From Candidatus Minthosoma caballi (GTDB lineage: Bacteria; Bacteroidota; Bacteroidia; Bacteroidales; Bacteroidaceae): a stretch of DNA of 33,723 bases. Position numbers and translations under genes: made by a program. Position 1 is the stretch's first letter, and every line of letters starts with the position of its first letter. The stretch spans positions 1 to 33,723 of the forward strand of contig JAGHVC010000212.1 in NCBI GenBank assembly GCA_018064505.1. The letters run 5' to 3'. Below, piece by piece: positions 1 to 24,894 of this stretch. Below the pieces are notes generated by a model. The model saw nothing but the letters and a program-made list of their open reading frames with translations, made no database searches and was not told the DNA's origin.

Positions 1-830
1 AAAGGCACAAATTCACAGTTGTATTTAGTGAAAAACTTTGTTACAGGATTCTTATTCTCGAATGGAACAAAGATGTTTGGATAGAGATTTTGTATGTTAC
101 GTATTGCCTCGCCAGTGTTTACTTGTCCCACTCCATATACAAATGGTGTAAGGTCAATTTTGTTATATACGAAAATCACCTTGTCGCGTGGAGACATCAT
201 AGTCTTCAAACTACGTATTCGACTGACATAATTTGCACGTGGAATGCTGTCATTCCAATCTGGTTCTACCATGACTGCCCATACTTTTCTGTTCACGCTT
301 TGTATGATAGTGTGGACATATGTAGGATATTGTCTGTTTGGATCGTCAGGAGAAAAGTAATACTCTCCTGGCGCTTCGAGAATCTGACATACTGGTTTTC
401 CATTCTTCAAAACCTTTACCAGCATAAAGCTGATGTTAGTCGTACTTGTTGCAGCTTGATTGGAATTAATCATCTGGTCAAAATTCTCACAGAGTTGCCT
501 GTAGTTGCTGTCATAAGTTGGACGGAAAGTCTTGTCTGGCACAACAGAATATCCTTGAGACTGCAAATATCTGGTCATTCGTACCAATGTCATAGTTTTA
601 CCACATGAAGGTGGACCATACAGCACAACAATTGGAGTATTTGGGTCAGAGATTGTTACTCTGATGTTGTTTGGATCGTTTAGCTCTTCTGTAGTAAGAC
701 CTGCAGGAGTGTTTTGTACAACATTATTACCATTGTTTGTACCTACATTGATATTTCCTACTTCGGTGTCATTTCCACCGTCGTTTATTTCTGTTGTATC
801 GATTGGATTTGTATTGATATCTATTGCCAT
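1..830 (-). CDS. P-loop GTPase-like protein (DO-GTPase/TRAFAC-like), C-terminus cut by window edge
   Basis: The frame opens with ATG at 828-830 and stays open to base 1, giving 276 visible codons, so the C-terminus is missing. Residues 1-60 are low-complexity and rich in Asn, Thr and Asp. A Walker A motif GPPSCGKT follows at residues 72-79. A strand ending EAPGE (152-156) sits where GTPases carry the DxxG switch-2 motif, and NKID (223-226) matches the guanine-specificity NKxD motif. This order is that of a TRAFAC-type GTPase, and the acidic-PGE signature resembles the 'double-GTPase' proteins described in bacterial NTP-dependent conflict systems; that assignment is inferred from memory of the family. 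The gene starts 18 bases after the macro-domain gene and is the third gene of a minus-strand operon. There is no signal peptide, so it is probably cytosolic and may dock on the membrane protein two genes upstream. Confidence 0.8.
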   Translation of the reverse strand, partial: MAIDINTNPIDTTEINDGGNDTEVGNINVGTNNGNNVVQNTPAGLTTEELNDPNNIRVTISDPNTPIVVLYGPPSCGKTMTLVRMTRYLQSQGYSVVPDKTFRPTYDSNYRQLCENFDQMINSNQAATSTTNISFMLVKVLKNGKPVCQILEAPGEYYFSPDDPNRQYPTYVHTIIQSVNRKVWAVMVEPDWNDSIPRANYVSRIRSLKTMMSPRDKVIFVYNKIDLTPFVYGVGQVNTGEAIRNIQNLYPNIFVPFENKNPVTKFFTKYNCEFVP

Positions 831-848
831 TTTGTTTATAATTTTAAT

Positions 849-1349
849 TTACATTATTTTATAATAATACATCTTTGCCACTTCGTCGAAGCAACAAATT
901 ATAACTTCACCGTCGAACCCTTCAACAATGCATTCCTTTATTGTAGAAAGGGCAATTTGAGCAGCTGCTTGTTTCGGAAAACCATATATGCCAGTACTTA
1001 TGCACGAGAAAGCAATACTACTCAAACTTTTTTCTTTTGCTATCTTCATTGCAGTTCGGTAGCATGAAGCAAGGAGTTCTGCTGCTTTATGTTCGTTATA
1101 ATTACTATATACTGGTCCAACAGTATGAATCACATATTTGCACGGAAGGTTGTATGCACCAGTTATTTTGCTTTGTCCAGTCTCACATCCACCAAGGGTT
1201 TTACATTCTTCATACAATCGCCTACCAGCAGCCCTATGAATAGCACCATCTACACCTCCTCCACCAAGAAGAGTTCGATTGGCTGCATTAACTATGGCAT
1301 CAACTTGTAGAGATGTAATATCTGCCACTATTACTTTCACATGCTCCAT
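849..1349 (-). CDS. Macro-domain protein (YmdB/O-acetyl-ADP-ribose deacetylase type)
   Basis: The product is 166 residues, essentially one macro domain. Visible hallmarks are VxxADIT at 6-12, VDAIVNAAN at 16-24, the glycine-rich GGGGVDGAIHRAAG at 29-42, and STGIYGFP at 118-125, which together form the ADP-ribose pocket of the YmdB/MacroD-like class. Such enzymes bind ADP-ribose or hydrolyse it from O-acetyl-ADP-ribose or modified proteins. The frame is open 11 codons further upstream, but I chose the ATG at 1347-1349 because it lies 4 bases after the stop of the membrane-protein gene and begins directly with the first strand of the fold. The tight spacing on both sides puts it in one operon with the GTPase-like and membrane genes. 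Whether it removes a modification made by that system or senses a nucleotide signal cannot be told from sequence. Confidence 0.92.
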   Translation of the reverse strand: MEHVKVIVADITSLQVDAIVNAANRTLLGGGGVDGAIHRAAGRRLYEECKTLGGCETGQSKITGAYNLPCKYVIHTVGPVYSNYNEHKAAELLASCYRTAMKIAKEKSLSSIAFSCISTGIYGFPKQAAAQIALSTIKECIVEGFDGEVIICCFDEVAKMYYYKIM

Positions 1350-1353
1350 ACTA

Positions 1354-2409
1354 TTAATCTCTTTTCTTGAATGCAATATCAAAGAAGATGAATGCTGCTA
1401 CATCCACAAGGATTGAAATGATTATCCAGAATACGAATGCAAGACCACCTTCTTTTCCTGTGAGGAAATCCACCCAAACATCATATACGCTGAGCAAACG
1501 TGCAACTTTTGTCTGAGGGTTGGCACAAGTGTATGCTTCTCTATCTGCCTCATCTTTGAAGTTCACAAATTGTTCATTCTTCTTAACAACATTATATGCT
1601 GTATTAAGTTGATCTTTGACACCTTGAACATCTTCTGCGTCTGTAAGGTCTAAATCTCCATTGTCTATAGATTTATTAATCAGTTGAAGGTTTTTCAAAC
1701 TGAGAGTGGTCTCTTTAAGGTTTTCTTCACTTGGTGAAAGAATGCTTTGTACAATGTTTCTTGCTTTTGAGTCTGCTAATGTGTACATCTTTTGACGATA
1801 TGCATCACATAAATTTTGACGTTCCTTTGGAGTGTTTGCTTTTACATTGAGAGGCTCTATCTTGTCAACTCCAAGAAGTTTTGCAAACTTTCGGAATATT
1901 TCCTCTGCCTTTGGACCAAAACCAGGATTTGCTGCATTCTTAATCTCAGCTTCCAATTCTCCAAGGAGAATCTCTAATTCATTCCTTAATTGTGTGACTT
2001 TAATCTTTGCTTGTTCATTATTGTTTGTGTTGTCTTTAATTTGAACAAGATATCCTTTGGATGTAGTAATATCTGCTGTTACCTTTTCGTCAATAAGATT
2101 GCGGAAGAAAAAGGTGTGAGTGTTGGTTGGCATACTACATAACAGCCAGAATATTAGGACAATAATTATGCCTCCAATCAGAGTTGCACCACGTTTCTCC
2201 ATGTAGATGTTCTGATTCAAACTGTCTGCTATCATCTTTGTTCCCCATGAGGCAATAAAGAAGAAGCCAATTGTGATTGCCCAACAAAAAATAGCAGGCC
2301 AACTTGGTAACAATAGATGTAATGATTCCGCAGTTGCCCAGCAGCTTACAGCAGCAAAGGCAAGAAAACCTACAATAGTGAAGATTTTCAAAAATTTGTT
2401 TTCGTTCAT
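1354..2409 (-). CDS. Four-TM membrane protein with large periplasmic helical domain, first gene of GTPase/macro operon
   Basis: A 351-residue protein not recognised by name. Hydrophobic segments are at about 8-26, 36-55, 75-93 and 322-345, followed by a short basic tail KKRD. With the N-terminus inside, residues 94-320 would be periplasmic. This part is mostly charged helix, with a probable coiled coil around 128-160, and contains isolated Cys residues. The gene begins the minus-strand operon: its stop is 4 bases before the macro-domain start, and the GTPase-like gene follows. By context it may be a membrane sensor, anchor or effector for that GTPase; this is inference. I see no convincing TAnnTTTG promoter between the RNA terminator at 2481-2510 and its ATG, so it may depend on read-through or a weak promoter. 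Confidence 0.85.
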   Translation of the reverse strand: MNENKFLKIFTIVGFLAFAAVSCWATAESLHLLLPSWPAIFCWAITIGFFFIASWGTKMIADSLNQNIYMEKRGATLIGGIIIVLIFWLLCSMPTNTHTFFFRNLIDEKVTADITTSKGYLVQIKDNTNNNEQAKIKVTQLRNELEILLGELEAEIKNAANPGFGPKAEEIFRKFAKLLGVDKIEPLNVKANTPKERQNLCDAYRQKMYTLADSKARNIVQSILSPSEENLKETTLSLKNLQLINKSIDNGDLDLTDAEDVQGVKDQLNTAYNVVKKNEQFVNFKDEADREAYTCANPQTKVARLLSVYDVWVDFLTGKEGGLAFVFWIIISILVDVAAFIFFDIAFKKRD

Positions 2410-2468
2410 GTTTATTCAATTCCGCTTAGCTACCACAGCAGAGTATTTTTTATGATAAGGTTCACATA

Positions 2469-2510
2469 TAAATAAAAGAACGTGGAGCCAGTCCTGTCAC
2501 TCGTTCCACG
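2469..2510 (-). terminator. Intrinsic terminator of the structured RNA
   Basis: A hairpin with arms CGTGGA (2481-2486) and TCCACG (2505-2510), with further inner pairing, is followed on the minus strand by a U-rich tract (complement of 2469-2480). Its outer arm overlaps the base of the long hairpin, so the two folds are partly exclusive. Confidence 0.7.
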
Positions 2511-2797
2511 CTATTAAGGCTCTCGCATTGCCCGGTAAGTCGAAACGAGCAACGCTGAAAGCCCCACGATGATGTATATAAACCCATTAGGATAAGGTAC
2601 AATACCCCCTATCCATTAGAAGGAGATATAAACATCCCATGAGACGTCCCCGTTGCTTTGTTTTTGACTTACCGATGAATTTGCGAGATTCTAATAGCGT
2701 CAAAACCAAAGCGTCAAGATACGCCTTTAATATATATGTGTCTTGTCTGTTGTTGTTATAGAATAATGAATTCTTATACAAGAGATGACAAAGACAC
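2470..2797 (-). ncRNA. Candidate independent structured RNA (long hairpin, 6S-like shape)
   Basis: No credible ORF occupies this stretch, but it has a promoter, extensive pairing and a terminator, all on the minus strand. The predicted start (about 2794-2797) is followed at once by a hairpin (2787-2797 with 2738-2747). A 193-base imperfect hairpin then spans 2508-2700, with arms 2508-2516/2692-2700 (9 bp), 2521-2526/2683-2688 (6 bp), 2533-2541/2666-2674 (9 bp), 2549-2554/2651-2656 (6 bp), a near-symmetric bubble (2555-2570 opposite 2637-2650), then 2571-2579/2626-2636 and the tip stem 2590-2594/2610-2614. A long hairpin with a central bubble of this size resembles 6S RNA, which sequesters RNA polymerase, but I cannot confirm the family. 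The 5' extension of about 95 bases is longer than usual for 6S. It could also be a leader RNA for the downstream operon. Confidence 0.62.
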
Positions 2798-2799
2798 CG

Positions 2800-2831
2800 C
2801 AAAAATAGTACTATTATTGAAAATAAGCAAA
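2800..2831 (-). promoter_or_regulatory. Bacteroidota-type promoter for the structured RNA
   Basis: On the minus strand TTTG (2828-2831) and TATTTTTG (2800-2807) are separated by 20 bases, an exact match to the Bacteroidota -33/-7 consensus (TTTG, TAnnTTTG). The predicted start is near 2794-2797. Confidence 0.75.
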
Positions 2832-2870
2832 TATAATGAGAGAAAAAATGTGAGTATATACAAAAAATAT

Positions 2871-2893
2871 GGCAGTCCGTTGTACGAACTGCC
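2871..2893 (-). terminator. Hairpin terminator, probably ending the sigma-factor transcript
   Basis: GGCAGT (2871-2876) pairs with ACTGCC (2888-2893), with an inner CG/CG pair. On the minus strand the hairpin is followed by ATATTTTTTG (complement of 2861-2870). It lies about 220 bases downstream of the sigma-factor stop and could also act weakly on the plus strand. Confidence 0.6.
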
Positions 2894-2975
2894 TTGATTT
2901 ATTAGTGAATTGTAAATGCCCTAGCTGTTAGTTTATGGGTGTTCTTCTTGTAGCTGTATAATCGCTGCCTTTGTC

Positions 2976-3053
2976 ATGAAAAGTGGTGTGAGTCACATCG
3001 GTATGGGTGGTGTGAGTCACACCACTACCATAGGTGTGAGTCACACCGCTTAA
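2976..3053 (+). CDS. Possible 25-residue peptide with octapeptide repeats (speculative)
   Basis: An ATG at 2976 opens a 25-codon frame ending in TAA at 3051-3053. Because the 24-base repeat is a multiple of three, the peptide has an in-frame 8-residue period in which GVSH recurs three times (at residues 4, 12 and 20). There is no clear ribosome-binding site or promoter, and the repeated DNA palindrome alone could explain the pattern, so I hold this only as a possibility. Confidence 0.2.
   Translation: MKSGVSHIGMGGVSHTTTIGVSHTA
2985..3047. repeat. Three 15-base palindromes at exact 24-base spacing
   Basis: GGTGTGAGTCACACC occurs at 3009-3023 and 3033-3047, and with one mismatch (GGTGTGAGTCACATC) at 2985-2999. 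Each copy is a 7-bp inverted repeat around a central G, and the starts are exactly 24 bases apart. The middle copy extends to a longer arm (GTGGTGTGA/TCACACCAC, with TATGG/CCATA outside). The array lies in the 3' region of the sigma-factor transcript. It could be a binding-site array, a series of RNA hairpins, or the coding repeat of a mini-ORF. Confidence 0.85.
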
Positions 3054-3116
3054 GGCAATGCTGGGTACGGTGATGAAGTGGGATTATTGTCACCCTTCTG
3101 GTTTCCTTTTGACTCG

Positions 3117-13380: not shown

Positions 13381-14547
13381 ATGAACAAATACTTTGCAAC
13401 ATTCTTTTTGGTTTGTGCTGCTATGATGTGCGGCTGCTCACCTGCTGGGCATTCGCATGAGATGGACGAAGAGCATGAGCATGAGGAAGGAGTGATTCAT
13501 TTGACTGATGAGCAGGCTGATGCTGCAGAACTTGCAACTGAGATAGTGAAAGCTGGTGACTTTGAGGAGTGCGTGAGAGTGAGCGGACAGGTGACGACTG
13601 CGCAGGGTGATGAGGCTGCTGTGACGGCAAAGAGCAGTGGAGTGCTCACATTCATGCGCGATCATCTTACTGAAGGCGTGGCTGTGAGTAAGGGCGAAAG
13701 CATTGCCCGAATCTCTGCTGCTGGCATGCAAGGCGGTGATGGCGTGGCACAGCAGCATGCGGTGCTTTCGGCTGCTAAGGCTGCATACGAGAGGGCAAAG
13801 GTGCTTATGGCAGACACGCTTATATCCCGCAAGGAGTTTGAGAGAGTGAAGCAAGAGTATGATGTGGCAAGGCTGGCAGCAGGCAGCGGCTCAAGCGGCA
13901 GTGTGGCCACAAGTCCTCTTTCGGGTTTCATTCGCTCCGTGATGGTGAAAGAAGGTGAGTTTGTGGAGGCTGGCAGCGTGATTGCTACTGTGACAAAAAG
14001 CTGCAACTTGCAATTGAGAGCGGAGGTGCCTGAGAAATACTTCCAGCATATTAAGAATGTGCGCAGTGCATACTTCGAGATGAGTTATGGTGGCGGTATT
14101 CATCAAATTGACTCTCTGCATGGTCACATTGTGTCAGCAGGACAGGCTGCAAGCGAAACTTCTGCTTACATCCCGTTGACATTTGAGTTTGAAAATGATG
14201 GATGTATGGTACCAGGTTCATTTGCTGATATTTGGCTTCTTACGGATAAGCGGAGTGGGGTGATAAGCGTCCCTTCGGAAGCAGTGACTGAAGAGCAGGG
14301 CGTTTATTATGTGTATTTGAAAAAAAATAACGATGACGATAACGATAACCATAACGATGATGAGCACCATCATGGGATGCTGGAATTTGAGAAGCGTGAG
14401 GTGCAGATAGGAGCAAGCAATGGATTGCGAACAGAAATTGTGAAGGGATTGAAAAGTGGAGATGAAGTGGTAGTGAAGGGTGTGACGCAAGTAAAACTTG
14501 CTGGAGCATCAGGTAATATTCCAGAGGCGCATAGTCATAATCATTAG
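13381..14547 (+). CDS. Metal-efflux RND membrane-fusion lipoprotein (CusB/CzcB-like), His-rich
   Basis: A 388-residue lipoprotein with lipobox MCGC (Cys19). The mature N-terminus is His/Glu-rich (HSHEMDEEHEHEE), followed by the half-lipoyl domain (about 70-95), a short helical hairpin, the second lipoyl half (SPLSGFIRSVMVKEGEFVEAG), a beta-barrel domain and the C-terminal membrane-proximal domain. A second His/Asp/Asn-rich stretch (about 314-332) lies in the C-terminal third, and the protein ends HSHNH. Histidine clusters at both ends and in the middle fit capture of Cu, Zn, Co or Ni in the periplasm. The gene starts a three-gene operon with the pump and outer-membrane channel (6-base gap to the pump). 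Which metal is handled cannot be read from the sequence. Confidence 0.93.
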   Translation: MNKYFATFFLVCAAMMCGCSPAGHSHEMDEEHEHEEGVIHLTDEQADAAELATEIVKAGDFEECVRVSGQVTTAQGDEAAVTAKSSGVLTFMRDHLTEGVAVSKGESIARISAAGMQGGDGVAQQHAVLSAAKAAYERAKVLMADTLISRKEFERVKQEYDVARLAAGSGSSGSVATSPLSGFIRSVMVKEGEFVEAGSVIATVTKSCNLQLRAEVPEKYFQHIKNVRSAYFEMSYGGGIHQIDSLHGHIVSAGQAASETSAYIPLTFEFENDGCMVPGSFADIWLLTDKRSGVISVPSEAVTEEQGVYYVYLKKNNDDDNDNHNDDEHHHGMLEFEKREVQIGASNGLRTEIVKGLKSGDEVVVKGVTQVKLAGASGNIPEAHSHNH

Positions 14548-14553
14548 AATAGC

Positions 14554-17500
14554 ATGTTGAATTCGATAATAAAATTCTCGCTAAAGAATAGATTGATTAT
14601 ATTGGCGGCGGCGGTGCTGGTGCTGATAGGAGGAACATATACAGCTCTCACGATGGAGGTGGATGTGTTCCCTGACTTGAATGCGCCTACTGTAGTGGTG
14701 ATGACGGAGGCTAATGGAATGGCTCCTGAAGAGGTGGAAAGGGTGGTGACATTCCCTATTGAGACTGCTGTGAATGGAGCTACTGGTGTGAGAAGAGTGC
14801 GTAGCAGCAGCCAAACGGGTTTTAGCTGTGTGTGGGTTGAGTTTGACTGGGGAACGGATATTTATCGTGACCGCCAGATCGTAGGAGAGAAATTGTCGGA
14901 GATTTCAAGTTCTTTGCCTGAGAATGTAGGGCAACCTATTCTTGGACCTCAATCGTCAATCTTAGGTGAGGTGATGATTGTTGGAATAAAAGCCTCTCAA
15001 CAGGAAAAAGGGCAAAGCGGCTCAAATAATGTTAATGCGAAGAATGGGGAAATGGGGGATTTGAAGGCTCAAACACTACAGAACTTGAGAACTATTGCCG
15101 ATTGGACAATGCGTCCACGACTTCTGAGTATTGGAGGTGTTGCTCAAGTTAGTGTGCATGGCGGAGAAACGAAGGAGTATCAAGTGCTGTTGCATCCAGA
15201 GAGGATGAAACATCATGAGGTAAGTGTGAACGAAGCTGTGGAAGCTGTGCGCGACATGAATCAAAATGTATCTGGTGGAGTGCTTTATGAGTATGGTAAT
15301 GAGTATCTTATACGAGGAGCATTGGCTACTACTGATGTTGACGAACTGGGCAAAACTGTAGTGAAGAGCGTGAATGGAGTACCCGTGCTGCTTGATCAAA
15401 TTGCAGAAATAAAGATTGGCAATAAAACTCCAAAGACTGGTTGCGCTTCGAATAATGGAGAACCTGCTGTACTGCTGACAATAAGCAAGCAACCAAATGT
15501 GAGCACTGAGGAATTGACAGAGCGTATTGATGCAGCTCTTGCTGACATGAAGAGCAGTTTGCCCGAGAATATTGAGTTTGACACTCAGATATTCCGTCAG
15601 CAGAGATTTATTGATGCTTCAATTGGAAACATCAAGGAGGCTCTGTTTGAAGGTGCTCTGTTTGTGATTGTTGTGCTATTTATCTTCTTGATGAATGTGC
15701 GCACCACTGTGATTTCGCTTGTCACCATACCTTTATCATTGCTTGTGAGCATATTGACACTCAAAGGTTTGGGATTGACAATCAATACGATGAGTATTGG
15801 AGGCATGGCTATAGCTATAGGTTCGCTGGTAGATGATGCAATTGTGGATGTGGAGAATGTGTATAAGCGAAGTTTGACGACTAATATTGACAGACTGAAT
15901 GTGTCGGCAAATGGATTGAAGCCGTGGCTGTCGTTGATTTATAATGCTTCGCGTGAGGTGAGAATGCCAATCTTGAATTCAACTTTGATTATCGTAGCTG
16001 CATTCTTGCCATTATTTGCTCTGTCGGGAATGGAAGGAAGGATGCTGGTGCCACTTGGCATAGCGTTTATCGTGTCGCTGTTTGCCAGCACTGTTGTAGC
16101 TTTGACTTTAACTCCAGTATTGTGTAGCTATTTGCTTAAAAAGAAGAACGATAACTATAACGAAAACGATGACGCTAAGCACAAAGGTGTAAACGATGAC
16201 GATGAGAAAAAGAATGATACAAAGTTTGTTGCATGGTTGAAGAAGTACTATGCTGTTGCTTTGGAATGGTGTTTTGAACATCGAAAAGTAGTGCTTGGTG
16301 CAACAGGCGGTGTGTTTTTGGTAACGCTTGTGCTTTTCTTCACACTTGGGCGCTCGTTCTTGCCACCTTTCAATGAAGGATCGTACACAATTAGCTTGAG
16401 CACTTTGCCAGGTATTTCGCTTGAAGAGTCTGATAAGATTGGCAGACGAGCTGAGCTGTTGTTGATGCAGATTCCTGAAATTCAGACAGTAGCAAGAAAG
16501 ACGGGTAGGGCAGAACTGGATGAACACGCCTTCGGAGTAAATACTTCTGAAATTGAAGCACCTTTCGTACTGTCTGATAGAAGCAGAAGTGAATTGCTTG
16601 CCGATGTTCGTTCAAAACTTTCCACTCTGCCAGGAGTGGCAATTGAGATTGGACAACCAATATCGCATCGAATAGATGCTATGCTCTCTGGTACTCGTGC
16701 AAATGTGGCAATCAAACTGTTTGGCACTGATTTGCAGAAGATGTATTCGAAGGGCCAAGAGATTAAGCAGTGCGTTTCAGAGATTGAGGGTGTGACTGAT
16801 TTGAATGTGGAACAACTTGTTGACCGCCCTCAGCTAAAGATTTCTCCAAAAAGAAACCTAATGGCTAAGTATGGCGTGACTCCTCGTCAGTTTGCTGATT
16901 ATATTAGTGTCTTGCTCGAAGGCGAATCGGTGTCGCAAGTATATGAGAATGGCGGCGCGTTTGACCTTGTCGTGAAGGTGGATGATGAGGACAGAAATGG
17001 TATTGACATTATTAAAGGCTTGATGATTGATGCCGACGGAAAGAAGATTCCGCTTGAGTATATTGCAGAAATAGTGTCTACAAGCGGGCCAAATACCATA
17101 AACCGTGAAAATGCTCAGCGCAAGCTTGTAGTGTCAGCAAATGTTGAGGGCAGAGATATGCGATCTACTGTGAATGAAATTCAACAGCGGATATCAGAAG
17201 AAGTGGAGTTGCCCGAGGGGTATCATATTGAATATGGAGGTCAGTTTGAAAGCGAGGAATCGGCATCACACATATTGTTGCTGACAAGCGGAGCATCGCT
17301 TCTTATCATCTTCTTGCTTCTAATTGGCCAGTTCCACAATTGGAAACAAGCGGCAATGGTGATGGTTAGCCTTCCTCTTGCCCTCATTGGTGGAGTGATA
17401 AGCATTGTGATAACAGGTGGTGTGCTTAGCATTCCTGCAATTATTGGCTTTATAAGTTTGTTTGGTATTGCAACAAGAAATGGAATTCTGTTGATTGATA

Positions 17501-17787
17501 AGTTTAATAATGATTTCGATGATTCAAAAAATCGAAAGCTTGATGAATCAGAAGCAAGAGAAACAGGAAGATCTCACACCAAAACCCTCATACATGACGC
17601 CATGGATCGTTTGACTCCTATTCTCATGACCGCTCTTACATCAGCTCTTGCGCTTGTTCCGCTTGCTCTTGGCGGAGAACTTCCTGGCAACGAAATCCAA
17701 TCGCCAATGGCAGTTGTGATGCTCGGAGGATTGGTTAGTAGCACATTGCTGAACATATTTATTATTCCTATAATATACAAAAGATAA
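14554..17787 (+). CDS. Heavy-metal RND efflux pump (CusA/CzcA family)
   Basis: A 1077-residue inner-membrane pump with the RND plan: TM1 at about 10-30, the first periplasmic half, TM2-6 around 335-525, TM7 near 570, the second periplasmic half, and TM8-12 at the end. Family marks are VDVFPDLNAPTVVV and VTFPIETAVNGATGV in the first periplasmic part, and SLVDDAIVDVEN in TM4, where the acidic pair Asp427/Asp428 fits proton relay. The cytoplasmic loop between TM6 and TM7 (about 529-555) carries an Asn/Asp/Lys-rich low-complexity insert. Together with the fusion protein upstream and the channel 10 bases downstream it would expel metal ions across both membranes. The last frame ends in KR just after TM12, a normal end for the family. 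Confidence 0.94.
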   Translation: MLNSIIKFSLKNRLIILAAAVLVLIGGTYTALTMEVDVFPDLNAPTVVVMTEANGMAPEEVERVVTFPIETAVNGATGVRRVRSSSQTGFSCVWVEFDWGTDIYRDRQIVGEKLSEISSSLPENVGQPILGPQSSILGEVMIVGIKASQQEKGQSGSNNVNAKNGEMGDLKAQTLQNLRTIADWTMRPRLLSIGGVAQVSVHGGETKEYQVLLHPERMKHHEVSVNEAVEAVRDMNQNVSGGVLYEYGNEYLIRGALATTDVDELGKTVVKSVNGVPVLLDQIAEIKIGNKTPKTGCASNNGEPAVLLTISKQPNVSTEELTERIDAALADMKSSLPENIEFDTQIFRQQRFIDASIGNIKEALFEGALFVIVVLFIFLMNVRTTVISLVTIPLSLLVSILTLKGLGLTINTMSIGGMAIAIGSLVDDAIVDVENVYKRSLTTNIDRLNVSANGLKPWLSLIYNASREVRMPILNSTLIIVAAFLPLFALSGMEGRMLVPLGIAFIVSLFASTVVALTLTPVLCSYLLKKKNDNYNENDDAKHKGVNDDDEKKNDTKFVAWLKKYYAVALEWCFEHRKVVLGATGGVFLVTLVLFFTLGRSFLPPFNEGSYTISLSTLPGISLEESDKIGRRAELLLMQIPEIQTVARKTGRAELDEHAFGVNTSEIEAPFVLSDRSRSELLADVRSKLSTLPGVAIEIGQPISHRIDAMLSGTRANVAIKLFGTDLQKMYSKGQEIKQCVSEIEGVTDLNVEQLVDRPQLKISPKRNLMAKYGVTPRQFADYISVLLEGESVSQVYENGGAFDLVVKVDDEDRNGIDIIKGLMIDADGKKIPLEYIAEIVSTSGPNTINRENAQRKLVVSANVEGRDMRSTVNEIQQRISEEVELPEGYHIEYGGQFESEESASHILLLTSGASLLIIFLLLIGQFHNWKQAAMVMVSLPLALIGGVISIVITGGVLSIPAIIGFISLFGIATRNGILLIDKFNNDFDDSKNRKLDESEARETGRSHTKTLIHDAMDRLTPILMTALTSALALVPLALGGELPGNEIQSPMAVVMLGGLVSSTLLNIFIIPIIYKR

Positions 17788-17797
17788 TCATTTGTTA

Positions 17798-18967
17798 ATG
17801 AAAAGAATATTATTCCTTATATCGATAATGCTTTTGTCCTCTCAAGCATTCTCGCAGTCGCTTGTGGAACTTTTTGATTTGATTGAACAGAACAATGCTT
17901 CATTGAAAGTTTATTCTGCAAAATGCAATGCCGAAAAGCTTGATGCATATACAGGAATCACTCTGGCAGACCCTGAGGTTGAGTTTGGCTATTTATGGGG
18001 AACTCCTGGTGAAATAGGTAACAGGAAAGATTTCTCTATCACTCAGAGTTTTGATCTTGCAACCCTTTTTGGAGCTCGTCGTAAAGAAGCGAACAGCAAA
18101 GCTGAACTTGCAGAAATTGAATATGAACAGGCGAAGAATCTTGTATTCTTTTCTGCTCAGCAAACTGTGATAGAAATCACATATTTAAATAAGAAAGCTG
18201 CAGAGTTGCAGAAAAGACTTGATACTGCAAAGCAACTGGAAAAATACTATAGAAAACTGCTTAATAATGGTGAAGTGAACAAGATTGAAGTGGGTAGAGC
18301 GCAACTTGCGAGAGTTTCAGCTGAAGCTGAGTTGAAGAGTGTGCAAGTAGAAAGGAATTCTTTAGTTTCGAAATTGGATGCTTTGTGCCGTAATGCTCAA
18401 GAGAATGATGCTGTACCTGCTGCGTTGTTGAATAAATTTGTAGATTCAGAACTCTATCCAAGTGATTACTTTGAAGGTGATCTTACACTTTCAGTTCATA
18501 AGCAAGAAGCCAATCTTGCATCACAGCAAATTGAGTCAGCTAAGAAAGAAGGATTGCCAGAGATTAAGGCTGGCTATATGTCGGAACTGACTGTTGGTGA
18601 GAAGTTTCGTGGCTTAACAATAGGCGTTTCAATTCCTTTATGGAAGAATCGTAACAATGTGTCTCGTGCTAAGGCTCAGTATGTGTTGGCAATGTCTTCT
18701 GCTGCTGAAGTTAATAGCCAGTTGAATGCTCAGCGCAAGGAATTGACTGAAAAACAAGAGAGTCTTCAAGAGCTTATTAATTTCATTCAATCCTCCCTGC
18801 AGTCACTAAATGCAACTCCTTTGTTGCTCAAAGCACTGAATGCTGGTGAGATGTCACTTGTTGATTTTGTGAATGATAGGGCGAATTATTATGAGCTCAC
18901 AGATAAGTTGCTCGATGCTGAGAAAGACTATGAAATAGCAAAAGCGGAGTTGGCATTCCTGCCTTAG
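17798..18967 (+). CDS. Outer-membrane efflux channel (TolC/CusC/CzcC family) of the metal-efflux system
   Basis: A 389-residue protein with a Sec signal ending near SQAFSQ and the repeated long amphipathic helices of TolC-type outer-membrane factors (residues about 25-210 and 220-385). It is mostly helical, rich in Ala, Glu, Lys and Gln, with short strands such as EIKAGYMSEL and GLTIGVSIPLW where each barrel hairpin crosses the membrane. There is no lipobox. The ATG at 17798-17800 is chosen; the frame is open two codons upstream through a TTG, which has no support. The gap of 10 bases after the pump gene shows one operon. No intrinsic terminator is visible before the next gene. Confidence 0.92.
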   Translation: MKRILFLISIMLLSSQAFSQSLVELFDLIEQNNASLKVYSAKCNAEKLDAYTGITLADPEVEFGYLWGTPGEIGNRKDFSITQSFDLATLFGARRKEANSKAELAEIEYEQAKNLVFFSAQQTVIEITYLNKKAAELQKRLDTAKQLEKYYRKLLNNGEVNKIEVGRAQLARVSAEAELKSVQVERNSLVSKLDALCRNAQENDAVPAALLNKFVDSELYPSDYFEGDLTLSVHKQEANLASQQIESAKKEGLPEIKAGYMSELTVGEKFRGLTIGVSIPLWKNRNNVSRAKAQYVLAMSSAAEVNSQLNAQRKELTEKQESLQELINFIQSSLQSLNATPLLLKALNAGEMSLVDFVNDRANYYELTDKLLDAEKDYEIAKAELAFLP

Positions 18968-19003
18968 CATATAATTTTAATTTTTGACTTTTTGTTTTTA
19001 TTC

Positions 19004-19034
19004 TTTGCCGTGTGAAAATTTTAGATTATCTTTG
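19004..19034 (+). promoter_or_regulatory. Bacteroidota-type promoter of the replication-initiator gene
   Basis: TTTG (19004-19007) and TATCTTTG (19027-19034) with a 19-base spacer match the consensus exactly. The start should be near 19040, about 17 bases before the ATG, so this gene is transcribed independently of the efflux operons on either side. Confidence 0.78.
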
Positions 19035-19056
19035 CAAGTAAAAATAGTATATAGCA

Positions 19057-20523
19057 ATGCCAAAGAAAACTAAGATAGATATTGACAATGCGCCTGCAAG
19101 CGTGGGCGAGAATTTGCCGTCGGGCACTGGCAAGGGGGATAATGTGCCTGTGAGATATATTAAACAGCCGTTTCCAGTGTCGTCGATGTATGCTGATCTG
19201 ACTCTGCAGCAGACGCATATCGTGGTTGAAATGATGGATAACTTGCAGGAGAAGGTGGATAAGCTGTTTAAGGTGCATAAGGAGAATGGGCAGGAGTTGC
19301 TGTTGTTCTCGGAGGAGGAGTTTGATGAGGATGGCATTGCTAATATTGATGTGAAGTTTTCTGCTCTTGCCAATAGGCCTGACTCTTATCGCGATGTCGA
19401 GAAAATCACTGCTGGGCTTATGTCTGCCTTCATCAAGATTGAGGATGAGAGTCCTGATGGTGAGGTGCAGCTTGAGCATTTCCTTGATTCTATCAGATAT
19501 CCTAAGAAGGGCAGTCGCCGTGATGTTGTCCGTTTCAGGTTCACTAAGCCTCAGGCAAGGCGCATTTTCAACTATAAGCGCTATTCGAAGTATCTGAAGC
19601 ATGTGGCTCGACATGCTAAGAGCAAGCATACGGCTCGTTTGTACATGCTCATCACTACCAACAGGGAACTGGGCAAATGGTTTGTCACATATAAGGAGCT
19701 TCGCAGAATGCTGGGCTGTGACATCTATGACGAGCAGAAGAAGGAGTATGTTGTGAACAGATGCAAGCTGTATAAGCACTTTAAGTCGGATGTGCTGAAA
19801 GTGGCTGAAAAGGAACTTAAGGAGTTGGCACAGAATAACTTGTCGGACTGCTATTTTGAGTTTGAGGAGATATTTGCTGATGGAGTGAGAAAGGGTGATC
19901 CTGAGAAGCTGCAGTTCAACATCTTTAAGTCTCACATGGGCGAGCTGGTTGATTTGAGGGCTAAAAACAATGTGAAGTATTTTGAGCTTCAGCAGTTCAT
20001 GCAAGAGAGTTTTGGTCTTACATATAATGATTGCCAGCCTATAATCCAGAAGATTGACGATGAGATGTATGAGCAGTTCAGCGTTAGAGTGCATGAGATT
20101 GATGCCAGCATCAGGAAGCAGGGCGACAAGATTAAGAACAAGAAGAAGTATGCTGTTAAGTCGTTGAATGAGGCTTTGAATGAGTTTGTTCATGAACAAA
20201 ATGGTGCTGAAACTGCTGACATTTCTGATAGTAAAGTCGGAAATGCCGTTGGCAATGGCGATGCTGATGATAAGCTGCCAAAATACTCTGAGTCAACTCT
20301 TTCTGCCATCAATGCTGTGAAGCAGATGCTGAAGGATTCTGGTAAGGATGCTGAGGGATTCCTGGATGGGTTCACTCTGAAGGAGGAGACTGAAACTTCT
20401 GTTGTGATTGAGGTGCTGAGCAAAGCTTTCCTTGACACCTACACTGCTCTTCATGGTGACGAATTCTATGCTTCTATTGAGCAGAAATTAGGGAAAGAGG
20501 TTGTTTCTGTGGTCAAGAAATAA
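19057..20523 (+). CDS. Rep_3-type replication initiator protein (RepB-like) with extra C-terminal domain
   Basis: A 488-residue cytosolic protein. After a short disordered N-terminus, residues about 45-280 follow the two winged helices of Rep_3 plasmid initiators: RDVVRFRFTKPQARRIFNY, SKHTARLYMLITTNRELGKW, TYKELRRMLGC, LYKHFKSDVLKVAEKELKEL and the closing GDPEKLQFNIF. Typical Rep_3 proteins have 250-350 residues. Here about 200 more follow: a basic linker, then a C-terminal part (about 400-488) whose helix/strand pattern, including ETSVVIEVLSKAF, recalls DnaA domain I (tentative). Such proteins bind iterons and open replication origins. No iteron array or DnaA-box cluster is visible in the flanking gaps. 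The gene is preceded by its own promoter and lies between two RND efflux operons. It may serve a secondary replicon or be a domesticated plasmid gene. Confidence 0.82.
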   Translation: MPKKTKIDIDNAPASVGENLPSGTGKGDNVPVRYIKQPFPVSSMYADLTLQQTHIVVEMMDNLQEKVDKLFKVHKENGQELLLFSEEEFDEDGIANIDVKFSALANRPDSYRDVEKITAGLMSAFIKIEDESPDGEVQLEHFLDSIRYPKKGSRRDVVRFRFTKPQARRIFNYKRYSKYLKHVARHAKSKHTARLYMLITTNRELGKWFVTYKELRRMLGCDIYDEQKKEYVVNRCKLYKHFKSDVLKVAEKELKELAQNNLSDCYFEFEEIFADGVRKGDPEKLQFNIFKSHMGELVDLRAKNNVKYFELQQFMQESFGLTYNDCQPIIQKIDDEMYEQFSVRVHEIDASIRKQGDKIKNKKKYAVKSLNEALNEFVHEQNGAETADISDSKVGNAVGNGDADDKLPKYSESTLSAINAVKQMLKDSGKDAEGFLDGFTLKEETETSVVIEVLSKAFLDTYTALHGDEFYASIEQKLGKEVVSVVKK

Positions 20524-20607
20524 CCTTTTCTGTGTGTATTTTGGCTAAAAAAGTACATATTGAACAAAAGTCCGTTGTTTTAAGCTATAAATGATTGGAA
20601 TATAACG

Positions 20608-20651
20608 AGTAATTTTGCTCCCGAAATTAAAAGTAAAAAAGAAAAATTACT
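20608..20651 (+). promoter_or_regulatory. Promoter and inverted repeat ahead of the second RND operon
   Basis: TAATTTTG (20610-20617) is a good -7 element. It is embedded in one arm of an inverted repeat, AGTAATTTT (20608-20616) and AAAATTACT (20643-20651), which spans the predicted start and ends 4 bases before the ATG. This would suit a repressor operator or a leader hairpin masking the start. Confidence 0.45.
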
Positions 20652-20655
20652 TGTT

Positions 20656-21729
20656 ATGAGATTTACTAATCTTTTGTTGATTGTCCTCACAGTTTCTGTT
20701 GTGCTGTCAGGGTGTAAAGATAAGGAGACTAAGGGTGCCGAGGCGCCTTTGGTCGATGTTTGTGTTGTTAATGGCTCTGGCGATGCGGGTCAGCAGATTT
20801 TCACTGGCAAAACTAAGTCTGCGGAGGAAGTGAATCTTGCATTCAGAGTGAGCGGGCAGATTGCAAAGATGTATGTGAAGGAGGGCGACCATGTGAGCAA
20901 GGGGCAAGTGGTTGCTGATTTGGATGCTCGTGATTATCAAGTGCAGCTTCTTGCAACGCAAGCTGAATATGAGCAGATTAAGGCTGATGCAGAGCGTATA
21001 ATGGCTCTTTATTCTGAGGGGAATACCACTGCAAGCAATAATGACAAGGCACGCTTTGGTTTGCAGCAGATTACTCAGAAGCTTGCTAATCATAAGAATC
21101 AGTTAGGCGACACGAAGCTTAGAAGCACAATAGATGGCTATGTGCAGACAAAGCTTCACGAGGCTGGTGAGACTGTAAGTGCTGGGATGCCTGTGGTGAG
21201 TGTGTTTGGAGGTGGAAATACGGAAGTTGAAATCAAGCTAAGTGCTGTTGATTATACAAACCTGGCAAAGTTTACAGGATTTACTTGCAAGTTTGAGGTC
21301 ACAGGCGATGAGTCATTTCCGCTTTCTCTTGTTCGAACTAGTCAAGAGGCAAATAGCAGTCAGTTGTACACTGTTCGATTCCGTTTTGCTGGCAATCCCG
21401 ACATGAACAAAATTACTCCTGGCATGACCACTACTGTCTATGCTGAATTGAATGACGAACATTCAAGTGGTGTTGTTAGTATTCCAACATCTGCATTGCT
21501 TAGCAAAGATGGAAAGTCGAGTGTGTATGTTCTTGATGAGAAAAAAGGAACAGTGCATCTGCGTAGCGTTGATGTGAAGGAAATGCATCGTGATGGGACT
21601 TGCGAGATAAGCGGTGGACTGAAATCTGGTGAGAAGATTGTCTGTACAGGTGTGCACCACATCAATGACGGACAGAAGGTGAGAATGATGAACAAAGTTA
21701 GTGAAAGTAATGTAGGAGGACTCTTATGA
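20656..21729 (+). CDS. RND membrane-fusion lipoprotein (AcrA/MexH-like)
   Basis: A 357-residue lipoprotein with lipobox VLSGC (Cys20). It shows the fusion-protein order: a beta strand and lipoyl half (LAFRVSGQIAKMYVKEGDHV), a helical hairpin (about 95-150), the second lipoyl half (LRSTIDGYVQTKLHEAGETV), a beta-barrel, and a C-terminal domain with IPTSALLSKDGKSSVYVLD and LKSGEKIVCTGVHHINDGQKV. It is shorter than AcrA and close to the MexH/NolF size. Unlike the first fusion protein it has no His-rich segments, so it points to organic compounds, not metals. The stop overlaps the pump start by four bases (ATGA), so the two are translationally coupled. Confidence 0.93.
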   Translation: MRFTNLLLIVLTVSVVLSGCKDKETKGAEAPLVDVCVVNGSGDAGQQIFTGKTKSAEEVNLAFRVSGQIAKMYVKEGDHVSKGQVVADLDARDYQVQLLATQAEYEQIKADAERIMALYSEGNTTASNNDKARFGLQQITQKLANHKNQLGDTKLRSTIDGYVQTKLHEAGETVSAGMPVVSVFGGGNTEVEIKLSAVDYTNLAKFTGFTCKFEVTGDESFPLSLVRTSQEANSSQLYTVRFRFAGNPDMNKITPGMTTTVYAELNDEHSSGVVSIPTSALLSKDGKSSVYVLDEKKGTVHLRSVDVKEMHRDGTCEISGGLKSGEKIVCTGVHHINDGQKVRMMNKVSESNVGGLL

Positions 21730-24700
21730 TAAACTTCAGCAAATGGGCTCTTGATAATAGCAAGCTTGTCAATTTCATGGTTGTGTGCCTTGTCATAGGC
21801 GGCGTGCTTGCATACAGCTCAATGTCAAAGCTTGAAGATCCAGCCATTAAGGTAAAGCAAGCGATGATTGTCACCACCTATCCTGGTGCTTCTGCTCATC
21901 AAGTGGAACTTGAGGTGACTGACCCTATCGAAAAGAGTATCAGAGAAATGACGACTATCAATAATATTCAGTCGTCAAGCTATGCTGATTTGAGTCTCAT
22001 TACCGTTGAGTTGCTCACTACAGTGCCAAACGAAGAGGTGGAACAGCAGTGGGACATGCTTCGCAGAAAGGTGAATAATGTGCAGGGAAAACTGCCTGCT
22101 GGAGCTTCGGCATCTGCTGTGAGGGATGACTTTGGCGATGTTTATGGAATGTTTTATGCTCTCACAGGAGATGGACTTACTGACACGCAGATGAGCGATT
22201 ATGCGGAACTCATTAAGCGAGAAGTTGGCGACATTGAGGGAGTGAGCCGTGTGGAGATTTATGGCAAGCGCAGTGAGTGTATCAACATTGAGCTTCGCCA
22301 AGATAAAATGGCGAATCTTGGCGTGATGCCGACTGAGGTCATTCAGACACTTAATAATCAGAACAAAACAAGCTATGCTGGCTACTATGAGAATGGAGAC
22401 CGTAGGATACGAGTGGCTGTTGACGACCAATTTGATAATGTAGTTGACATAGCCAATATGCTTATTCAGGGGCATGATGACGATCAGCTGCGCATCAAAG
22501 ATATTGCCACAGTGACAAAGTCGTATGAAGCAACTACTCGCAACAAGATGGATCGCGATGGAAAACGCTCACTTGGCATCAGCATCGCTTGTCTCAATGA
22601 CTATGATATTACAAAGGTAGGCTCAAAGGTTGAGAAATGCATTCAGAACATAGAACACCGCTTGCCTGTTGGGGTTGAATGTGAGAAGGTCTTTTTCCAG
22701 CCAGAACGCGTAAATAATGCGCTCAACACATTCCTTGTCAACTTGTTAGAGTCTGTCATTATTGTCGTTGTTGTACTCATCTTCTTCATGGGTTGGAGGA
22801 GTGGTGTCATTATCGGTACAAGTCTTGTTGTTATCGTTTTTGGCTCGTTCCTTGTGCTTCAAGGTTTTGATGGCACCTTGCAGAGAGTTTCGTTAGCCAG
22901 CTTCATTCTTGCTATGGGAATGCTTGTTGACAATGCTATCGTAATTGTTGATGGCGTGTTGGTTGACTTGAAGCTTGGCAAACCTCGCATGGAAGCTCTC
23001 ACATCCATTGGCCAGAAGACGGCAATGCCACTTCTCGGAGCTACCTTGATAGCTATTTTAGCTTTCTTGCCAATCTTTATGAGTCCAGACACAGCGGGCG
23101 TTTATGTTCGTGATCTCTTCATTGTAATTGCTGTGAGTCTTTTGTTAAGCTGGCTTCTGGCTTTGACACATGCTCCAATCATGAGCGATTGGATGTTTGC
23201 AAGAAAAGGCAAAGGTGTGAATGATGACAAGAAAGATATGAAGAAAGACCTCTACAAAGGCAAGTCATACGAGTTGCTTGAGGTAGTTTTGAAGTTTGGC
23301 CTGCGCCATCGATGGATGATGGTGGCTGCAGCAGTTGTTTTGTTAGCAATCAGTGGTTTATGCTATAAATTCCTCAATCAAGCATTTTTCCCTGACATGG
23401 AGTATGACCAGCTCTATATGGAATATAAGCTACCTGAGGGTAATAACTCCAGTCAGGTTGAAAAGGATTTGATGGAGATTAGTAAAGTGCTTAAAAAACA
23501 TGATTATATCACTCATATCACAGCAAGCGTAGGTGGCACTCCGTCGCGCTATAACCTCGTACGAAGCATTGCAACTCCGTCATTAGCCTATGGCGAACTT
23601 ATTGTAGACTTTGATTCTCCGTCATCGTTGGTTGAGCACATCGACTCGCTTCAGAGAGAGATTTCAAACCTCTATCCTGATGCTTATGTGAAGTTTAAGA
23701 GATATAATCTCATGTTCAAGAAGTACCCAATAGAAGCATGCTTCCATGGGCCAGATCCTGCTGTTCTTCATCAACTTACTGACTCTGCAAAAGCTATTGC
23801 AATAGCTTCATCAAAGACCTATCTCGTCACTTCCGATTGGGAACCTCAAGTGCCTGTGCTGAGCATTGACTATGACCAGGCAGTTGCAAGAAATATCGGA
23901 CTTACTCGTGGTGATGTGGCTCTCTCTATGATGGCATATACTGGTGGCATTCCTATTGGCTCATTCTACGATGGCATCCATGCTGAGAATATATATGTAA
24001 AATGTATTGATGAGAATGGAGATAACATCGACCGTCTCAACGATGCCCAAATATTTGGCATGATGCCAAGTTTAGGTAAGTTCATGAATCGCAATACTAT
24101 ACAGAAACTCATTACCGGCACAGTAACTAAGGAAGAAATAATTGAGAATCTCATACAGACGACACCTCTTCGTCAAGTCTCACATGGTATCGACATCAAG
24201 TGGGAAGAACCTGTTGTGGTGCGATATAATGGGCAGCGTACTCAGCGCATGCAATGTTCGCCATGCCCTGGAGTTGGCACAGAGGAAGCAAGAACAGCCA
24301 TTGCCGAAGAGATTGAGAAGATTAAATTGCCAGAAGGCTATACGCTCAGTTGGGAAGGTGAAAAGAAAGCATCTGCTCAGGCAATGAAATACCTCTTCAA
24401 TGGCTTCCCAATCAGCATTGTCATCATGATATTCATACTTGTCATGCTCTTTAAGGATTACAAGAAACCTGCCATTATATTCTGTTGCATTCCTCTTATT
24501 CTCATTGGAGTAACGCCAGTAGTTCTTATGACAGGCAAACCATTTGGCTTTGTGGCAATTGTAGGTGTGCTGGGATTGATAGGCATGATGATAAAGAATG
24601 GAATTGTATTGATGGATGAGATTAATCTTGAAATCAGTTCAGGCATAAAGCCTCGAAAAGCATTGATTCAGAGTTCAAAGTCACGCTTGCGCCCTGTGAT

Positions 24701-24860
24701 GATGGCAAGCCTCACTACGATCTTAGGAATGATTCCTCTTGTTCCAGATGCAATGTTTGGTTCGCTTGCCGTCACCATCATGGGCGGACTCTTCATAGGC
24801 ACTCTCATCACTCTCATTTTCATACCAGTGCTGTATTCTTTGTTCTTTAAAGTGAAATAA
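21726..24860 (+). CDS. RND multidrug-type efflux pump (AcrB/MexB superfamily)
   Basis: A 1044-residue inner-membrane pump, the usual size for the HAE-1-like group. It begins with TM1 at about 14-34, then the first periplasmic half, TM2-6 at about 330-490, the second periplasmic half, and TM8-12 near the end (GFPISIVIMIFILVMLF onwards). In TM4 the sequence is GMLVDNAIVIVDG: Asp402 is kept while the second acidic residue of AcrB is Asn403, a change seen in a subset of RND pumps. The TM6-TM7 cytoplasmic loop (about 493-512) is Lys/Asp-rich, with KGVNDDKK, closely like the same loop in the metal pump. It forms a tripartite system with the lipoprotein upstream and the channel that starts 34 bases downstream. 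Confidence 0.94.
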   Translation: MINFSKWALDNSKLVNFMVVCLVIGGVLAYSSMSKLEDPAIKVKQAMIVTTYPGASAHQVELEVTDPIEKSIREMTTINNIQSSSYADLSLITVELLTTVPNEEVEQQWDMLRRKVNNVQGKLPAGASASAVRDDFGDVYGMFYALTGDGLTDTQMSDYAELIKREVGDIEGVSRVEIYGKRSECINIELRQDKMANLGVMPTEVIQTLNNQNKTSYAGYYENGDRRIRVAVDDQFDNVVDIANMLIQGHDDDQLRIKDIATVTKSYEATTRNKMDRDGKRSLGISIACLNDYDITKVGSKVEKCIQNIEHRLPVGVECEKVFFQPERVNNALNTFLVNLLESVIIVVVVLIFFMGWRSGVIIGTSLVVIVFGSFLVLQGFDGTLQRVSLASFILAMGMLVDNAIVIVDGVLVDLKLGKPRMEALTSIGQKTAMPLLGATLIAILAFLPIFMSPDTAGVYVRDLFIVIAVSLLLSWLLALTHAPIMSDWMFARKGKGVNDDKKDMKKDLYKGKSYELLEVVLKFGLRHRWMMVAAAVVLLAISGLCYKFLNQAFFPDMEYDQLYMEYKLPEGNNSSQVEKDLMEISKVLKKHDYITHITASVGGTPSRYNLVRSIATPSLAYGELIVDFDSPSSLVEHIDSLQREISNLYPDAYVKFKRYNLMFKKYPIEACFHGPDPAVLHQLTDSAKAIAIASSKTYLVTSDWEPQVPVLSIDYDQAVARNIGLTRGDVALSMMAYTGGIPIGSFYDGIHAENIYVKCIDENGDNIDRLNDAQIFGMMPSLGKFMNRNTIQKLITGTVTKEEIIENLIQTTPLRQVSHGIDIKWEEPVVVRYNGQRTQRMQCSPCPGVGTEEARTAIAEEIEKIKLPEGYTLSWEGEKKASAQAMKYLFNGFPISIVIMIFILVMLFKDYKKPAIIFCCIPLILIGVTPVVLMTGKPFGFVAIVGVLGLIGMMIKNGIVLMDEINLEISSGIKPRKALIQSSKSRLRPVMMASLTTILGMIPLVPDAMFGSLAVTIMGGLFIGTLITLIFIPVLYSLFFKVK

Positions 24861-24894
24861 TTTTGAATACCTACTTATATACTTACATATTAAT

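Follow-up and report, generated by a model that had tools for sequence, protein, structure and literature searches.

What kind of system begins at the left end of contig JAGHVC010000212.1 of Candidatus Minthosoma caballi (GenBank assembly GCA_018064505.1)? The window analyzed here is that one whole contig (C149; 33,723 nt), and its first 2,409 nt carry, all on the minus strand, genes for a membrane protein, a macro-domain protein and a P-loop GTPase. These had originally been predicted to form a three-gene operon in which a sensor of membrane damage or phage might signal through the GTPase, with ADP-ribose chemistry as output or control. Comparison with related loci indicates that the trio is the start of a longer module, found in many Bacteroidales of the gut, in which the genes for the membrane protein (mem), the GTPase and a third protein (gapN) are fixed and are usually followed by a retropepsin-like gene, by mornN, and then by variable, exported-like genes; the names mem, gapN and mornN were coined in this analysis. 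A misleading trio is replaced by a conserved module present in named strains. We put at roughly 0.5 the probability that the module beginning in the window is a divergent relative of double-GTPase/GAP1 systems anchored in the inner membrane, with a cytosolic switch, variable periplasmic parts, a macro-domain passenger and conflict as its likeliest use.

Composition and spread of the module

The mem gene (351 aa; positions 2409-1354), identified by open reading frame (ORF) call and hydropathy, is the first gene of the conserved module. It is separated by 4 bases from the macro gene (166 aa; 1349-849), which lies 18 bases ahead of the GTPase gene (830-1; codons 830-3, open at the contig end), and our ORF calls agree with the predicted arrangement. 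The three GTPase motifs named in the original prediction were all found in the sequence, namely the Walker A motif GPPSCGKT (residues 72-79; 594..617, minus strand), the switch-II-like EAPGE (residues 152-156; 363..377, minus strand) and the base-recognition-like NKID (residues 223-226; 153..164, minus strand). Across 68 sequences (alignment A4: the window and 67 of the 78 loci described below), the last glycine and the lysine of Walker A are invariant, as are the glycine and final glutamate of EAPGE (written G152/E153 there); the lysine and aspartate of NKID are invariant in alignment A1, and only the aspartate in A4. Set aside from A4 were L048, L065, L077, L079, L080, L098, L099 (for a stop), L105, L106, L107 and L118.

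The window encodes residues 1-276 of the GTPase. Extension to the left, proposed earlier as a way of completing the gene, was supplied by a second contig (C232) that overlaps the left end of the window by exactly 89 bases and holds the remainder (L003:6046-6246), giving a protein of 313 aa. At least four further genes of the operon follow on C232: gapN (503 aa) directly after the GTPase gene, a retropepsin-like gene (183 aa; PF13975 and PF13650 above cut-off), mornN (365 aa) and a BACON-like gene (334 aa; PF13004 just below cut-off), followed after a larger gap by a 69-aa ORF. The name mornN refers to MORN-like repeats judged by eye in the C-terminal part of the protein; the Pfam scan reports no MORN match in the mornN of the window genome. 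The G+C content of the operon is 35.5-39%, versus 43.9% for the window.

When 84,980 species genomes were scanned with one peptide pattern around the P-loop, a search that can miss copies, 78 loci were found, of which 72 are labelled as members of Bacteroidales or Bacteroidetes and six as Firmicutes-type metagenome-assembled genomes. Carriers include Bacteroides luti DSM 26991, Parabacteroides distasonis NM39_I3, Hallella mizrahii and Xylanibacter rodentium. Genes were called as simple longest-ORF picks, and a GTPase gene was called in 76 of the 78 loci (the exceptions being L052 and L116; L079 and L080 are cut at a contig end, and L098 and L108 have another architecture). In these 76 loci, the gene immediately before the GTPase gene was mem in 72 and the one immediately after it was gapN in 71; the run also included a retropepsin-like gene in 48 loci and mornN in 57, and several of the contigs end early. 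Since the order of mem, GTPase and next gene is kept in more than 70 of the 78 loci, the arrangement is not due to chance. The co-occurrence count suggested earlier therefore came out in favor of mem and the GTPase, which stay together in related loci, and against the macro gene, which is not kept.

Within the family to which the window's genome belongs, GTPase relatives (E ≤ 1e-3) were found in 16 of 201 genomes, its own included, two of which (L033 and L034) had the relative without a mem gene nearby; within the genus the count was 4 of 13, again including its own. An upstream neighbor was common to 9 of 1431 locus pairs. From these comparisons and the lower G+C content of the operon, the module appears to have spread horizontally in Bacteroidota, and its neighborhoods look mobile.

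Several loci depart from this picture. Operon genes labelled Roseburia (L118), Bacillus coagulans (L120), Lachnospiraceae (L105), Bacilli (L079), Clostridia (L080) and Clostridiales (L087) lie on short contigs, and these records are probably mislabelled or misbinned. In L098 (619 aa) and L108 (465 aa) the GTPase domain sits within longer proteins in other contexts, and in L108 a gene with a TIR-like start, recognized by motif, stands beside the fusion.

The macro gene is read, from its distribution, as a local insertion or passenger outside the conserved module. Its product matches Pfam Macro over its full length (E 4.3e-47) and scores 209.2 bits against NF001664, the O-acetyl-ADP-ribose deacetylase macro family (curated cut-off 200), and its macro motifs look intact, as had been claimed; a deacetylase activity is predicted from the sequence match, and the gene differs from that family in its setting within a different operon, where it seems to be a passenger. 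No macro match at E ≤ 1e-3 was present among the called ORFs of the 78 loci (1.14 Mb) or of 15 further regions, which partly overlap the loci (several are the same contigs) and so are not independent of them. In the family, macro relatives with 26-72% identity occur in 38 of the 201 genomes, the window's own included; in the other 37 they sit elsewhere, and in the three of these that also have a GTPase match, on another contig than that match. The window gene is the sole macro match of its genome. If the macro protein were instead a working component, removing or reading ADP-ribose marks that the GTPase system makes or senses, its tight spacing on the same strand, its intact motifs and a G+C content resembling that of its operon neighbors would be accounted for. 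The lack of a macro match among the called ORFs of the other copies examined, the placement of its relatives elsewhere, and the lack of an ADP-ribosyltransferase among the Pfam matches of the operon genes scanned make such a role very improbable. The trio as a unit is thus not upheld, and because the macro protein lacks a match among the called ORFs of the other copies examined and has its relatives elsewhere, the system is unlikely to use ADP-ribose chemistry as its output or control.

Topology, variability and a three-gene form

Hydropathy was used to assign topology, each locus contributing a single gene of every kind. Four transmembrane (TM) helices were found in 60 of 73 copies of mem. 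The mem of the window has four as well (9-27, 32-50, 75-93 and 323-341), and in it a large domain of ~229 residues lies between TM3 and TM4. The original description of a membrane protein with such a domain holds in these respects, and its periplasmic placement is probable under the usual in/out rule. A PTNTHTFF motif marks the end of TM3 (2107..2130, minus strand; alignment A3), with T95, N96 and H98 invariant in 13 sequences. One TM helix was found in 70 of 73 gapN copies, mostly near residues 300-350, and in 48 of 64 mornN copies, mostly near residues 180-240. The gapN protein consists of an N-domain, often a coiled-coil stretch, the TM helix and a tail; in mornN, the N-domain is followed by the TM helix and a variable tail. 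By the same in/out rule, both N-domains and the GTPase would be cytosolic and the tails periplasmic. D[ST]G is retained in 49 of 51 copies of the retropepsin-like protein, and 34 of the 51 begin with a lipobox-like sequence.

The membrane and GTPase parts of the module are conserved and the presumed periplasmic parts hypervariable. Among 700 of 1891 locus pairs sampled, the 110 with a GTPase identity of 0.5-0.6 gave median identities of 0.47 for mem, 0.30 for the gapN N-domain and 0.23 for the rest of gapN, and of 0.31 and 0.22 for the N-domain and C-terminal part of mornN; the medians for the rest of gapN and the C-terminal part of mornN are within 0.01 of the values in the most distant pairs. 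Accessory genes in the run were exported-like in 40 of 53 cases versus 134 of 496 other flank genes (Fisher p 6e-12; L098, L108, L052 and L116 set aside), as called by a simple rule of N-terminal hydrophobicity.

For domain scans and profiles, we used 61 of 74 gapN genes (A5), 72 of 107 downstream genes (A6), and the window mornN with 52 of 70 mornN genes (A7). Among the 25 of 55 Pfam families listed for the 72 downstream genes, BACON occurred in six and Sel1 in three; FNIII, the repeat type of a protein of GAP1-N2 systems, was not listed there, in a scan not aimed at it. Among the 25 families listed for the 53 mornN proteins, FGE-sulfatase-like tails occurred in three (L046, L122 and L123). 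One of these tails belongs to an unusual locus, L046:11704-18486, in which five mornN-type ORFs, two of them possibly one split gene, stand in tandem after the core operon, the last with the FGE-sulfatase-like tail; the array looks like a cassette expansion.

Profiles were compared with hhalign, run without secondary structure, so that the probabilities are rough. The N-domains of gapN and mornN matched each other at 99.2% (E 1.8e-19; 179 columns), with none of 120 shuffles scoring as high, and on this comparison they are homologous. A mem profile found matches in 7 of 393 genomes of the order, four of them strong (own included), and weak matches in 8 of 395 genomes of other Bacteroidota, own included. 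Of the seven distant loci, six were examined (L205-L210); in all six, mem is followed by a GTPase-like gene and this by a single further gene, which has one TM helix in five of the six. The window-family model finds four of the six GTPase-like genes, and alignment finds the other two. By profile, the distant and window families match at 98.7% for mem and 95.9% for the GTPase; with the distant third gene, the gapN profile gives 61% across 80 columns (0/120 shuffles as high) and the mornN profile 0.6%. Given this three-gene layout and the match of its third gene to gapN, the minimal core seems to comprise three genes, the third component seeming to be present twice in Bacteroidales, as gapN and mornN. 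The three-gene form offers a small target for reconstitution.

Relationship to double-GTPase/GAP1 systems

No Pfam or NCBIfam match above the curated cut-off was seen for the GTPase, mem, gapN or the mornN N-domain (25 families listed for the alignments). PADLOC matches were weak and mostly on the P-loop or coiled coils; the window mem had weak, below-cut-off matches in Pfam and NCBIfam and none in PADLOC. Searches of PDB profiles returned P-loop, coiled-coil or helical-bundle matches among the best 60, with SRP/FtsY the best listed for the GTPase. A housekeeping GTPase, which would have counted against the original prediction, was rejected because family cut-offs were not exceeded and presence is patchy.

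The systems that the module most resembles are the double-GTPase (DO-GTPase)/GAP1 systems, for which we refer to the main text of Kaur et al. 2020 (PMC7159879). As described there, these share with the module a GTPase with an invariant GE motif, a partner gene directly downstream (the gapN N-domain being faintly GAP1-N-like), variable further components, TM components and mobile-looking neighborhoods. The module differs in that it usually has one GTPase, its partner is a TM protein, mem replaces GASH and is dissimilar to it, no DO-GTPase or GAP1 match is seen in Pfam, and it also contains a retropepsin-like gene and mornN; the words 'retropepsin', 'aspartyl', 'MORN' and 'BACON' do not occur in that main text. 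Second GTPase genes, a likeness to true double-GTPase systems, form a tandem pair in L092 and lie further downstream in L073 and in L091. From the same main text we also considered the EACC1 two-gene membrane-associated system, which likewise has a small membrane component beside fast-varying parts and differs in its caspase-family second gene, its mostly actinobacterial distribution and a description there that does not include a GTPase core.

Comparison profiles were built from 12 DO-A, 13 DO-B and 12 GAP1-N sequences taken from canonical loci in the same class and on plasmids. One such locus (L124:5497-11685) carries GASH, a DO-GTPase pair and GAP1, and similar loci occur on plasmids; L217 and the DO-A and GAP1 genes of L128 (unannotated, reading frame unclear) were set aside. 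The distant GTPases matched DO-B at 96.7% (E 3.6e-10; 187 columns), the same value as DO-A against DO-B, and DO-A at 89.7%, versus 19-34% for the SRP, Der, Obg, MnmE and Era controls, which are our names for unannotated clusters. The window GTPase family matched DO-A at 92% over 161 columns. A D..GE motif is found in 9 of 12 DO-A sequences (the pattern matched elsewhere in the other three) and, with D or E, in 13 of 13 DO-B sequences; the double-GTPase motifs DAPGEW and DYGGEQ are comparable to EAPGE, and on our reading the glutamate of the GE in the window family would be the Walker B/switch II glutamate meant in the main text of PMC7159879. The gapN N-domain scored 25.8 against GAP1-N, above the maximum of 17.8 among 120 shuffles, in an alignment that starts at the first residue and spans the HG...GH and R.G...L positions. 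Taken together, these scores make kinship with double-GTPase/GAP1 systems likely, short of formal membership.

Other results weigh against this kinship. Pfam DO-GTPase models match neither the window GTPase nor 15 members (25 of 27 families listed), and genome searches with PF19993 and PF20013 did not find the source genome (G000). The window GTPase family matched DO-B at 20%, and its DO-A match fell to 54% without gappy columns, although it stayed above 120 of 120 shuffles. A combined GTPase profile matched DO-A (94.7%) and DO-B (91.9%), and also Der (88%) and MnmE (80%), and DO-A itself gave 95% with both Der and Era, so that the DO signal is partly one common to such GTPases. The probability for gapN against GAP1-N was 6-10%, and in a first comparison with smaller sets (7 DO-A, 8 DO-B, 7 GAP1-N) the match was not significant; Pfam reports no GAP1-N in gapN among 25 of 34 families listed for 13 members. 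Neither mornN (77/120 shuffles as high) nor the distant third genes (16/120) are linked to GAP1-N. By Pfam scan, without a profile comparison, no GAP1-M or GAP1-C was present in the window gapN or among the families listed for the 13 members. The source genome has a single GTPase gene, split over two contigs, and thus does not show the paired genes seen in 38% of published double-GTPase systems (main text of PMC7159879). The L057 GTPase had no match in plasmid and phage collections. Also rejected was mem as a GASH protein (6/60 shuffles as high against 11 GASH proteins, 4/60 for distant mem). Weak PF19993 matches elsewhere were taken as chance, since the regions read around five of them (L211-L214 and L125) show no mem-GTPase module.

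These results leave room for a new GTPase family without specific double-GTPase kinship, for example one nearer SRP/SIMIBI, that reached a similar layout independently. Consistent with it are the SRP/FtsY matches in the PDB, the missing Pfam DO-GTPase match, the low DO-B score, and the fact that SRP GTPases gave the window family its best control score (81% over 61 columns; other controls 3-30%), a further point against the kinship; in that first control comparison the clusters held at least three sequences each, from 48 of 54 loci. The SRP match is confined to 61 columns around the P-loop versus 161-184 columns for DO-A, and the distant module members match DO-B as strongly as DO-A does, so we consider independent origin quite unlikely. 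The double-GTPase link of the original prediction thus stands as probable remote kinship by profile comparison, and not as a match to the Pfam DO-GTPase models.

Possible function and neighboring sequence

An envelope-homeostasis or surface-assembly device, in which a membrane GTPase drives export, anchoring or turnover without a conflict role, would explain why accessory genes are so often exported-like, why BACON and Sel1 recur among their listed families, and why most parts have TM helices or lipoprotein-like starts. It would also fit a point that counts against a conflict system, namely that among the 25 families listed per scan, no cytosolic effector or known toxin domain stood out as typical for the operon. 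TIR was tried as an effector and left unused (TIR_2 in 2 of 72 downstream genes, among the families listed; the one that could be placed, in L108, adjoins a different GTPase fusion). Housekeeping of this kind seems somewhat unlikely to us, and a conflict system fits better, because presence across the family is patchy (16 of 201 genomes), flanks differ and the tails evolve fast. The FGE-sulfatase-like mornN tails also speak against it, this domain type being an effector named for related conflict systems in the main text of PMC7159879.

In the double-GTPase/GAP1-related reading that we prefer, the GTPase would lie on the cytosolic side of the inner membrane, bound to the gapN and mornN N-domains and under the control of mem. 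Either mem or the variable tails would read a signal in the periplasm and so switch the GTPase, and the switch might alter the way in which the periplasmic parts are assembled or proteolyzed, the aspartic protease probably being involved. Its purpose would most likely be directed against phages or rival bacteria, and a defense role is plausible. A fuller version, which we hold to be unlikely as it stands, is an undescribed transmembrane GTPase switch of gut Bacteroidales on the double-GTPase plan, with an envelope-facing role in immunity or competition: the duplicated GAP1-N-like domains of gapN and mornN would be paired regulators of one GTPase, carrying hypervariable periplasmic sensors or effectors and triggered by an aspartic-protease lipoprotein. 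No published description of this operon was recognized among the paper listings and abstract openings searched or in passages of PMC7159879 and PMC11237479. The module suggests that GTPase/GAP1-like conflict logic may reach the periplasm in gut bacteria.

In the canonical locus L124, residues ~772-1032 of GAP1 match nucleosidase-annotated genes, and this stretch is perhaps a fused effector. Upstream of mem, ~700 bases (2410-3116) lack an ORF of more than 100 aa and include a Bacteroides-like promoter match near 2830-2800; an Rfam scan of the window and L003, this region included, gave nothing at the gathering threshold. Beyond the operon on C232 lie three consecutive small genes (DUF4160, DUF7723 and DUF7724; L003:160-972), which could be a toxin-antitoxin-like set. 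Elsewhere in the window (13381-26277), two RND-type efflux gene sets, each with a periplasmic adaptor, a pump and an outer-membrane factor, were recognized by eye from the ORF list.

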